A DNA stretch of 64,000 nucleotides from Amycolatopsis balhimycina FH 1894 (GTDB taxonomy: Bacteria > Actinomycetota > Actinomycetes > Mycobacteriales > Pseudonocardiaceae), in contig NZ_KB913037.1 in the NCBI RefSeq assembly GCF_000384295.1, positions 4,722,868 through 4,786,867 on the forward strand, given 5' to 3'. Below are positions 19,441 through 21,315 of the stretch, piece after piece (the first letter of the stretch is position 1; each line of letters begins with the position of its first letter). The notes beneath the pieces are model-generated. The model saw only the letters and a list, made by a program, of their open reading frames with translations. It was not told where the DNA came from and searched no databases. The position numbers and the translations under genes were made by a program.

Positions 19441-19482
19441 GTGGCGCGTGCTCTCCTGCTTCGCTGCCGCGACGGGGCCTGA
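19441..19482 (+). CDS. leuA leader peptide (Leu-Leu-Leu)
   Basis: A 13-codon ORF starting at GTG 19441 after GGTGGGG and reading V-A-R-A-L-L-L-R-C-R-D-G-A, with three consecutive leucine codons (CTC CTG CTT). It ends 72 bp before leuA. The last third of the ORF forms one arm of the hairpin at 19467-19504, so a ribosome stalled on the leucine codons would change folding. This is the expected layout for leucine-sensing attenuation, and leader peptides upstream of leuA are known in actinobacteria. Confidence 0.8.
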   Translation: MARALLLRCRDGA

Positions 19483-19522
19483 CCGGACCGGCTCCCCGTC
19501 GCGGGGCTTCGTGGTGCCGGTC
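19467..19522 (+). promoter_or_regulatory. leuA leader RNA hairpin with loop pseudoknot
   Basis: An 11-bp perfect stem (19467-19477 / 19494-19504) has a 16-base loop in which GACCGGC (19486-19492) is exactly complementary to GCCGGTC at 19516-19522. The helices are compatible with an H-type pseudoknot directly before the leuA start region. The 5' arm overlaps the leader ORF, linking translation of the Leu codons to formation of the structure and probably to access of the leuA start. Confidence 0.7.
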
Positions 19523-19554
19523 GCACCCGTCGAGCTGGAGACACCCCCTTTCCC

Positions 19555-21315
19555 ATGAGCAAGATCCGCAAACCCTCCCGTACCGCGCCCGCTGACCAGC
19601 CCGCCTGGAACACCCAGCGCGGCACGTCCATGCCGGTCCACCGCTACCGCCCCTGGTACGACGTGGTCGAGAACATCGACCTGCCCGACCGCACCTGGCC
19701 CGAAAAGCGCATCGACCGCGCGCCGCTGTGGTGCGCCGTCGACCTGCGGGACGGCAACCAGGCCCTGATCGACCCGATGTCGCCCGCGCGCAAGCGCAAG
19801 TTCTTCGACCTGCTGGTCCGCATGGGCTACAAGGAGATCGAGGTCGGCTTCCCGGCCGCGTCGCAGACGGACTTCGACTTCGTCCGCGAGATCATCGACG
19901 AAGGCGCCATCCCGGACGACGTCAGCATCCAGGTGCTGACCCAGTGCCGCCACGAGCTGATCGAACGGACGTTCCAGGCCCTCGAAGGCGCGCCGCGCGC
20001 GATCGTCCACATCTACAACTCGACCTCGATCCTGCAGCGCCGCGTGGTCTTCCGTGAGGAGCGCGAAGGCATCAAGAAGATCGCGACGCAGGCCGCGGAA
20101 CTGGTCGTCGAGCTGGCCGCGAAGCAGCCCGACACCGACTTCCGGTTCCAGTACTCGCCCGAGTCCTACACCGGCACCGAGCTGTCCTACGCGCTCGAGG
20201 TCTGCAACGCCGTCACCGAAATCTGGCAGCCGACGCCCGAGAAGCCGGTGATCCTGAACCTGCCGGCGACCGTCGAGATGGCCACGCCGAACGTCTACGC
20301 CGACTCGATCGAGTGGATGAGCCGGAACCTGGCCCGCCGCGACTCGGTGATCCTGTCGCTGCACCCGCACAACGACCGCGGCACCGGCATCGCCGCCGCC
20401 GAGCTGGGCTACCAGGCCGGCGCCGACCGCATCGAGGGCTGCCTGTTCGGCAACGGCGAGCGCACCGGCAACGTCGACCTGGTCGCGCTGGGCATGAACC
20501 TCTACAGCCAGGGCATCGACCCGCAGATCGACTTCTCCGACATGGACGAGATCAAGCGGACGGTCGAGTACTGCAACCAGCTGCCGGTGCCCGAACGCTC
20601 GCCGTGGGGCGGCGACCTGGTGTTCACCGCCTTCTCGGGCTCGCACCAGGACGCGATCAACAAGGGCCTCGACGCGCTGAAGGACGCCGCCGACAAGCAG
20701 GGCGTCCCGATCGACGAGTACCCGTGGGAGGTGCCGTACCTGCCGATCGACCCGAAGGACGTCGGCCGCACGTACGAGGCCGTGATCCGGGTGAACTCGC
20801 AGTCCGGCAAGGGCGGCGTCGCCTACATCATGAAGGCCGAGCACCAGCTCGACCTGCCGCGGCGCCTGCAGATCGAGTTCTCGAAGGTCATCCAGCGCTA
20901 CACGGACTCCGAGGGCGGCGAGGTCGACCCGACGACGATGTACAACGCCTTCTCGGCCGAGTACCTGGAGCTGAAGACGCCGCTGGAGCTGGTCCGCCAG
21001 CACGTCCGAGACAACGGCGACGGCGAGTACGACATCACCGCGACCGTCCGTGTGGAGGGTGACGAGCACGAGATCACCGGCCGCGGCAACGGCCCGATCG
21101 CGGCGTTCTTCGACGCGCTGTCGACGGTCGGCTTCGACCTGCGGCTCCTGGACTACAGCGAGCACACGCTCTCGCCGGGCGACGACGCGCGCGCCGCGTC
21201 GTACATCGAGTGCGCGATCTCGGACCGCGTGTTCTGGGGCATCGGGATCGACGCGTCGATCGTCACGGCGTCGCTGCGCGCGGTCGTCTCGGCGGTGAAC
21301 CGCGCCAACCGGTAG
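19555..21315 (+). CDS. leuA: 2-isopropylmalate synthase
   Basis: A 586-residue LeuA of the long actinobacterial type. The catalytic TIM barrel has [13 protein letters not shown] and the metal-binding [11 protein letters not shown] (HxH); the C-terminal ~150 residues carry the LeuA regulatory domain for leucine feedback inhibition. It condenses acetyl-CoA with 2-oxoisovalerate as the first committed step of leucine synthesis. ATG 19555 has only a weak ribosome site (GGAG, ~15 bases away), consistent with control by the leader. It is alone; leuB/C/D are not in the window. Confidence 0.97.

Follow-up and report, generated by a model that had tools for sequence, protein, structure and literature searches.

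The LEU element upstream of leuA in Amycolatopsis balhimycina, a probable ribosome-read attenuator on a scaffold shared with other branched-chain genes

The leuA gene of Amycolatopsis balhimycina FH 1894 is preceded by a very short open reading frame rich in leucine codons and by two helices, P1 and P2, that cross as an H-type pseudoknot. The question raised by this locus is how such a leader can bear on the gene, since P2 ends at 19522 and the leuA ATG lies at 19555, a gap of 32 nt. Positions are those of the window, the whole stretch of 64,000 nt that was analysed; its relevant parts are as follows.

19429..19434, + strand: -10-like hexamer TATGGT, separated by 6 nt from the leader GTG (sequence)
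19441..19482, + strand: leuA leader peptide ORF, VARALLLRCRDGA and stop, with a GTG start, 13 codons and the stop codon TGA at 19480-19482
19452..19461, + strand: base stem 5' arm, UCUCC-U-GCUU, UCUCCUGCUU, overlapping the Leu codons (pseudoknot-free MFE)
19453..19461, + strand: sensed codons CTC CTG CTT (Leu-Leu-Leu), read from the sequence
19467..19477, + strand: P1 helix 5' arm, CCGCGACGGGG, within the leader ORF (sequence and covariation)
19486..19492, + strand: P2 (pseudoknot) 5' arm, GACCGGC, in the P1 loop (sequence and swap test)
19494..19504, + strand: P1 helix 3' arm, CCCCGTCGCGG (sequence and covariation)
19516..19522, + strand: P2 (pseudoknot) 3' arm, GCCGGTC (sequence and swap test)
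19532..19541, + strand: base stem 3' arm, GAGCUGGAGA, holding the candidate leuA Shine-Dalgarno (MFE and duplex energy)
19537..19540, + strand: candidate leuA Shine-Dalgarno GGAG, 14 nt upstream of the ATG, a long spacing (sequence)
19555..21315, + strand: leuA, 2-isopropylmalate synthase, 586 aa, the regulated gene (NF002991, E 2e-269; TIGR00970)

Identity and conservation of the element

In the window the P1 arms are perfect complements over 11 bp and the P2 arms over 7 bp, and the base stem, seen in the pseudoknot-free MFE, has nine pairs and one U-U mismatch. An earlier note on this DNA had drawn attention to the 13-codon GTG ORF with its three adjacent Leu codons, to the perfect 11-bp stem whose 5' arm lies inside that ORF, and to the exact complementarity of 19486-19492 with 19516-19522, with the pseudoknot ending 32 bp before the ATG; the ORF was recovered base for base, and the stem, the 7-bp pairing and the spacing are all as described. 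Its further statement that a pseudoknot-type leuA leader is known from actinobacteria corresponds to the LEU element, so named by Seliverstov, Putzer, Gelfand and Lyubetsky in 2005 (PMC1262725), who reported it upstream of leuA in most of the Actinobacteria studied, and a look-alike inside a transposase gene of B. longum. These authors described the element as a Leu-codon leader ORF, a pseudoknot, and a base stem formed by the Leu codons with the leuA Shine-Dalgarno. The window has a short ORF with a Leu run, the pseudoknot helices and the base stem, all directly upstream of leuA, and it is near certain that the locus belongs to the LEU element of actinobacterial leuA.

The same authors judged attenuation unlikely and proposed binding of a protein, suggesting the orthologues of M. 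leprae ML1624, whose phylogenetic pattern they noted as matching that of the LEU element. As they summarize the work of Craster et al. (1999), mutations in the S. coelicolor leuA leader had some effect, inconsistent with classical attenuation; their conclusion, citing the same study, has the Leu-codon mutations without influence on regulation.

Taken by itself, the window does not fold with unusual stability (19441-19590, z -0.72, 43 of 200 shuffles being at least as stable), and its P2 taken singly is not significant against shuffles (p 0.13). It is the recurrence of the leader and of P1 and P2 across genomes, with compensation, that indicates the structure to be more than chance. Rfam gave three matches at the locus up to E 10, all far under the family cut-offs, and a similarity to the F6 sRNA there (17.7 bits vs. 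a cut-off of 46) is attributable to chance. The sole Rfam match at gathering score within the window is an SRP RNA, at 48759-48853.

The leuA loci compared number 110, namely 30 from 40 genomes and the best 80 of 593 relatives. The leader lies upstream of leuA in 109 of them, the exception (L040) being a MAG, and P1 is unbroken in 105 of these 109, with only 7 bp in one (L072); the other four, L041, L042, L043 and L046, have one A-C mismatch each. P2, with arms picked by best pairing, reaches at least 7 bp in 103 of the 105 loci with an unbroken P1. All loci are the best-scoring matches of each search, a sample that leans to strong matches, and species counts across elements are not counts of independent events.

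Of the alignments made, the first (A1) was not used for counts, its variable loop length having misplaced the columns of the P2 3' arm; A2 holds 51 of 67 distinct sequences and A3 a hand-picked 46. In A3, 29 P1 cells carry changes on both sides vs. 4.6 in shuffles that keep relatedness, and 95.6% of P1 cells are paired vs. 40 to 68% after sliding. Two of the covarying pairs occupy the first and second positions of a single leader codon, and the residue encoded there varies (D, G, S, C) without loss of the pair, so that selection at this point acts on the RNA.

For P2, a swap test was used because picking arms by pairing could bias the counts: each element was set against the downstream strands of elements having another P2 core. 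The set comprised 197 elements, i.e. 206 less 9 exact duplicates, with L240 omitted; the 206, like A2 and A3, leave out L040 for want of a leader, along with L041, L042, L043 and L046. Own pairing beats the mean of the swapped strands in 178 of the 197. Among elements with rare P2 cores it does so in 31 of 40, and in 10 of 40 it is matched by at most 5% of swaps. Against simple shuffles p falls below 0.05 in 118 of 197 elements, in none of the four leuC elements and in two of nine leuA elements of set 2. The earlier note had proposed looking for conservation and covariation of the two helices in related genomes; that comparison brought no refutation, and it shows the leader, P1 and P2 to be kept.

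Distribution of the scaffold, its sensed codons and its start

The scaffold was followed with two models, R1 (the Leu run plus P1, built from 51 sequences) and R2 (P1, the loop and three preceding bases, from 46 sequences), the second of which leaves the sensed codons outside the model. In the window's own genome R1 gives one strong match, of 76 bits, the next having 27; there are two or three matches in some other Actinomycetes, and at E 0.01 the model finds 40 of the 296 genomes in a phylum sample. R2 at E 0.05 matches 359 of 394 genomes of the class, an upper figure since weak matches, those at E above about 1e-4, include false ones. At E 1e-4 it finds 16 of the 296 genomes of the phylum sample, one of them (G232) from outside the class.

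Altogether 84 R2 loci were fetched, one of them (L176) the window's own and one (L230) a duplicate of an earlier locus. By blastp, 80 of the 82 others precede leu-pathway genes; the remaining two are L184, which has a tiny ORF like that found before leuB, and L240, which is false. A further 20 weaker or third matches divide into ten of leu type, seven unrelated and three unclear (L253, L260, L271). The R2 matches that look unrelated are L258, L262, L264, L265, L267, L268, L270 and L240, and L306 to L309 (R2, E 0.019-0.037) have no leader of LEU type. Within the window's genus the leuA element is present in 14 of 14 genomes searched. Three genus genomes have a second leuA; in G010 and G012 an element lies 38-39 nt before the second-leuA match, and before that of G016 none was found at a trustworthy E.

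The genes that follow the scaffold fall into five groups: leuA, a second leuA, leuC, leuB, and stand-alone LeuA allosteric-domain proteins (LeuA-dimer). The gene names were profile-checked on one to three examples each (L157 for leuC, L150 for leuB, L163 for the second leuA), and the LeuA-dimer profile PF08502 scored above cut-off in two of three stand-alone examples. An ilvE gene follows leuB in L150 by profile, and a similar ORF was seen by eye in L162; ilvE beside leuB would be a reason for sensing all three branched-chain amino acids.

The codons before P1 change with the gene. Leu-Leu-Leu is present in the six codons before or running into P1 in all 158 leuA leaders (156 of the 197-element set plus L263 and L269) and in all five leuC leaders, while all 13 leuB leaders have Val or Ile and all 10 LeuA-dimer leaders have Val. 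Second leuA leaders have LLL in 15 of 20, the other five reading LLH, FLL, LLG, LFL and TTVL. Since loci L001-L110 were recognised partly by the Leu-Leu-Leu pattern, LLL there is not independent; the pattern-free count, from elements found by R2 only, is 51 of 51 for leuA, with Val/Ile in 11 of 11 leuB and 7 of 7 LeuA-dimer leaders and LLL in 12 of 17 second leuA leaders. In the last four of the six codons, Val or Ile occurs in 2 of 158 leuA leaders vs. 23 of 23 leuB and LeuA-dimer leaders (Fisher 4e-27, relatedness ignored). By handle, seven families contribute the leuB cases; a single family (f8, four genera) accounts for every LeuA-dimer case, so that these are not ten independent events.

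Synonym choice is equally distinctive. The 491 Leu codons of 156 leuA leaders comprise 203 CTC, 200 CTT, 85 CTG and 3 others, vs. 4574 CTG, 984 CTC and 28 CTT among 5775 Leu codons in the fetched parts of the leuA genes. For leuB and LeuA-dimer (10 and 5 leaders respectively, rather than the full 13 and 10), GTA makes up 15 of 21 Val codons in the leaders vs. 7 of 416 in the genes, and ATT 5 of 12 Ile codons vs. 2 of 185. CUU might be kept for pairing with the Shine-Dalgarno; GUA, which is not complementary to it, could not be. tRNA-Leu(GAG) decodes CUC and CUU under the usual wobble rules, and both it and tRNA-Leu(CAG) were found in the window's genome (in 18 stretches out of 51 tRNA matches, a partial list). 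Comparison of leaders with genes thus shows both the rare-codon bias and the match of codon to gene, and on these two grounds the sensor is likely to be the ribosome that reads the leader.

The start of the leader suggests that it lies at the very 5' end of the transcript. With the leader start defined as the closest in-frame start codon that leaves six or more codons ahead of P1, a TANNNT hexamer ends 6-10 nt before it in 186 of 196 leaders, vs. 13 occurrences summed over every other distance between 0 and 39 nt; among the 197 elements, the LeuA-dimer leaders L153, L211 and L213 have no TANNNT 4-10 nt before an in-frame start. From this promoter-to-start spacing, which the comparison shows to be kept, the leader transcripts are probably leaderless. 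In the window, where a scan of 19330-19700 gave no full sigma-70-type promoter, TATGGT at 19429-19434 fits a predicted transcript start at or next to 19441.

Coupling to leuA and the competing explanations

A connection to leuA, missing from a pseudoknot that ends so far upstream, would be supplied by the base stem. Its duplex in the window, between the leader strand and the initiation region, is calculated at -20.5 kcal/mol (p 0.02 vs. shuffles). The leuA-wide figure for own strands is -13.21 vs. -12.01 (sd 0.25) for permuted partners, with none of 5000 permutations as good (99 distinct leader strands, relatedness kept), though an average of 37% of strands taken from other elements outbind the own strand. 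Tested one by one, only 29 of the 156 leuA elements reach p 0.05 against shuffles, and the near neighbours of the window are weak in this respect (L002, p 0.25; L003, p 0.15).

Folding calculations bear on whether a ribosome on the leader would expose the Shine-Dalgarno. Masking of the leader strand while the knot region is fixed leaves the Shine-Dalgarno more open in 142 of 178 elements (leuA, second leuA and leuC, with P1 alone held where P2 has p of at least 0.1, the window included); the mean unpaired value rises from 0.26 to 0.41, and is 0.35 with a shuffled leader. Without the knot, in 172 elements, the value is 0.27 when free; placing a ribosome on the Leu codons raises it to 0.38, placing one at the stop codon to 0.29, and blocking the first 16 nt to 0.34, so that the last opens the Shine-Dalgarno almost as much as blocking the Leu codons. 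For the window the change without the knot has the wrong sign, from 0.20 free to 0.14 under a ribosome that covers the Leu codons; with P1 held it goes from 0.10 to 0.14. The base stem is accordingly moderately supported at leuA and weakly in the window, where the 14-nt spacing from Shine-Dalgarno to ATG also counts against it. When the target was the first start or the tiny ORF, 14 of 24 leuB and LeuA-dimer elements fall below the swap mean and 5 of 24 have p_swap of at most 0.05, and the leuB start as target yielded nothing; as the base stem is not established there, these elements may have their output by another route.

We consider it probable that the LEU element of leuA is a translational attenuator read by the ribosome. 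Transcription would begin at or beside the GTG at 19441, allowing a 70S ribosome to load at the 5' end. With leucyl-tRNA ample, it would pass CTC CTG CTT, terminate at 19480-19482 and depart, after which P1 and P2 could fold into a compact knot that brings 19452-19461 beside 19532-19541; these would then pair, and leuA would be poorly translated. When leucyl-tRNA is short, chiefly the isoacceptor that reads CUC and CUU, the ribosome would stall on the Leu codons, covering the Leu-codon strand together with some of the P1 5' arm, so that the leuA Shine-Dalgarno stays free. Stalling, the direction of control, and an output that is translational rather than transcriptional are what we infer here; exposure of the Shine-Dalgarno by opening of the base stem, about which we are less sure, is the best single account of the leuA output. 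A mutated Leu codon would break the base stem as well, and might derepress leuA rather than lock it; the S. coelicolor mutants may be re-read with this in mind.

It is possible, if rather unlikely, that a ribosome-read leader has a transcriptional output, the ribosome setting polymerase pausing or Rho termination, the pseudoknot being a pause or anti-Rho structure and the base stem secondary. The codon swaps and rare codons fit this equally well, the base stem is unsupported in the leuB and LeuA-dimer elements, and the ilvB1 leader of Mtb is reported, in the part of PMC13236596 that deals with it, to work through transcription attenuation. Against it stand the cross-species support for the leuA base stem and the window itself, which has no intrinsic-terminator-like site between leader and leuA: a search of 19330-19700 gave 0 such sites, and the U-run terminator of a classical trp-type attenuator was thus not encountered.

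Less probable again is the proposal of 2005, with a regulatory protein, one of the ML1624 orthologues, binding the pseudoknot and the leader peptide incidental. P1 and P2 are indeed conserved across orders, and PMC1262725 could cite both the phylogenetic pattern that its authors had noted for ML1624 and the S. coelicolor mutants, which it took as evidence against attenuation. However, binding of a protein does not account for the presence of Leu codons at leuA but Val or Ile codons at leuB and the LeuA-dimer genes, and neither the use of rare synonyms (GUA among them) nor the spacing between promoter and leader start follows from it. The mechanism of the LEU element has been open since at least 2005, and these natural codon swaps, which amount to a mutation experiment run by evolution, argue for the ribosome as sensor over the protein-binding model.

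The earlier note had the ribosome decide whether the pseudoknot forms, and the pseudoknot alone govern access to the leuA start. Its Leu leader peptide and pseudoknot stand, and the ribosome is likely the sensor, but the base stem to the leuA Shine-Dalgarno was missing, and without it a pseudoknot that stops short of the ATG has no link to leuA. The conservation of P2 is in its favour; yet the gap that follows P2 is 32 nt to the ATG here and, in relatives, 31 to 153 nt to where the leuA match (not the start codon) begins, the only link to the start being the base stem, and we regard this version as very improbable. Scarcely credible is arrest of the ribosome by the nascent peptide LLLRCRDGA, in the manner of arrest peptides, for although many leaders share a similar C-terminal end, [RC][RC][DGS]G[VA], it is the P1 5' arm that encodes this end, and there the residue changes and the pair is kept.

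To return to the ribosome-read attenuator, on balance the LEU element appears to be one case of a codon-programmable pseudoknot attenuator. One scaffold, consisting of a leaderless mini-ORF, P1 and P2, would have been copied in Actinomycetes to sites upstream of leuA and a second leuA, of leuC, of the stand-alone LeuA-dimer proteins and of a very small conserved ORF that precedes leuB(-ilvE), and re-aimed among leucine, valine and isoleucine by the codons before P1, with the rare synonyms CUU, GUA and AUU as the most sensitive stall sites. If the ribosome is the sensor, replacing the leucine codons by rare valine codons should make the switch answer to valine. The scaffold also marks other branched-chain genes of Actinomycetes, including those for the LeuA-dimer proteins and the tiny ORF before leuB, as probably belonging to a single control circuit.

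Relation to known systems

The LEU element at leuA was known; what is added here is comparative evidence on reuse of the scaffold and on codon switching. The literature searched, which takes in few subscription journals, yielded no report of the scaffold before LeuA-dimer genes or the leuB tiny ORF. A presumed leuA leader peptide of Corynebacterium glutamicum with four consecutive leucine codons is listed from RNA-seq in the pertinent part of PMC4046766. In Streptomyces lividans the leuA leader LeuL1 is reported, in the passages of PMC8079986 devoted to it, to be transcribed leaderless and without a typical terminator; its peptide, MRFGLLLLSCRGEGL and stop, is identical to that at loci L164, L237 and L251, and those passages, unlike the present analysis, do not mention a pseudoknot or base stem.

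Polycysteine leaderless ORFs precede mycobacterial cys genes, according to papers citing Canestrari et al. (2020), and the relevant passages of PMC13236596 describe these genes as under translation attenuation. From these accounts they resemble the leuA leader in being leaderless short ORFs with a run of the sensed codon, and differ in that cysteine is sensed rather than leucine. The ilvB leaders (the Corynebacterium ilvB-II motif of PMC10272879 and the Mtb ilvB1 leader of PMC13236596) are likewise described, in the sections concerned, as having a peptide rich in branched-chain codons with the ribosome as sensor; they end in a Rho-independent terminator, whereas the window has no terminator-like site.

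The closest relative remains the LEU element of PMC1262725 itself, which has the same leader ORF with its Leu run, the same two-helix pseudoknot and the same base stem of Leu codons with the Shine-Dalgarno. In contrast to that description, the scaffold is found here also before leuC, leuB, the second leuA and the LeuA-dimer genes, the sensed codons switch with the gene, and rare synonyms are used.

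Variation in P1 and other genes in the window

By eye, the 3' arm of helix P1 in the leuA leader is able to fold as a small hairpin of its own, CCCCG-UCG-CGGGG (window 19494-19506), which is a candidate alternative to P1. A single A-C mismatch is seen in P1 of each of four leuA leaders from other actinobacterial genomes (L041, L042, L043 and L046), the others having A-U or G-C there. Two other genes were located in the window:

16092-17420, (-) strand, aspartate kinase gene, near leuA
48759-48853, (-) strand, bacterial small SRP RNA

A tiny ORF ahead of leuB, an element-like match and a degenerate copy of the element

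Between the leader and leuB lies a conserved tiny ORF of about 20-45 residues, located about 50-255 nt 3' of the element, with a core resembling ALQEAMDRRDNGGETGH or QESMDLREQG (loci L175, L184, L228, L229, L231, L241, L244, L162, L150 and L186); a Pfam scan of one example gave no matches. An ORF start resembling it (MYEMYPWG) also follows the element-like match L253 (G405:C9:168948-168990), where the leader frame appears broken, and is itself followed by a ROK-family protein whose best NCBIfam match, TIGR00744, is under its cut-off.

L260 is a degenerate copy of the element whose leader has an in-frame stop (MLGM*LLLLRRGGS); an intact copy, L205, lies on the same contig about 2.5 kb away, in the opposite orientation.

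G583:C277, 1979-2020, minus strand, L260 element

Stand-alone LeuA-dimer proteins

The allosteric (dimerisation) domain of LeuA also occurs as stand-alone proteins of about 120-165 residues, and ahead of the genes encoding these stands a form of the element that carries Val codons (loci L148, L153, L154, L198, L211, L213, L214, L223, L259 and L261; L183 is the same place as L148).
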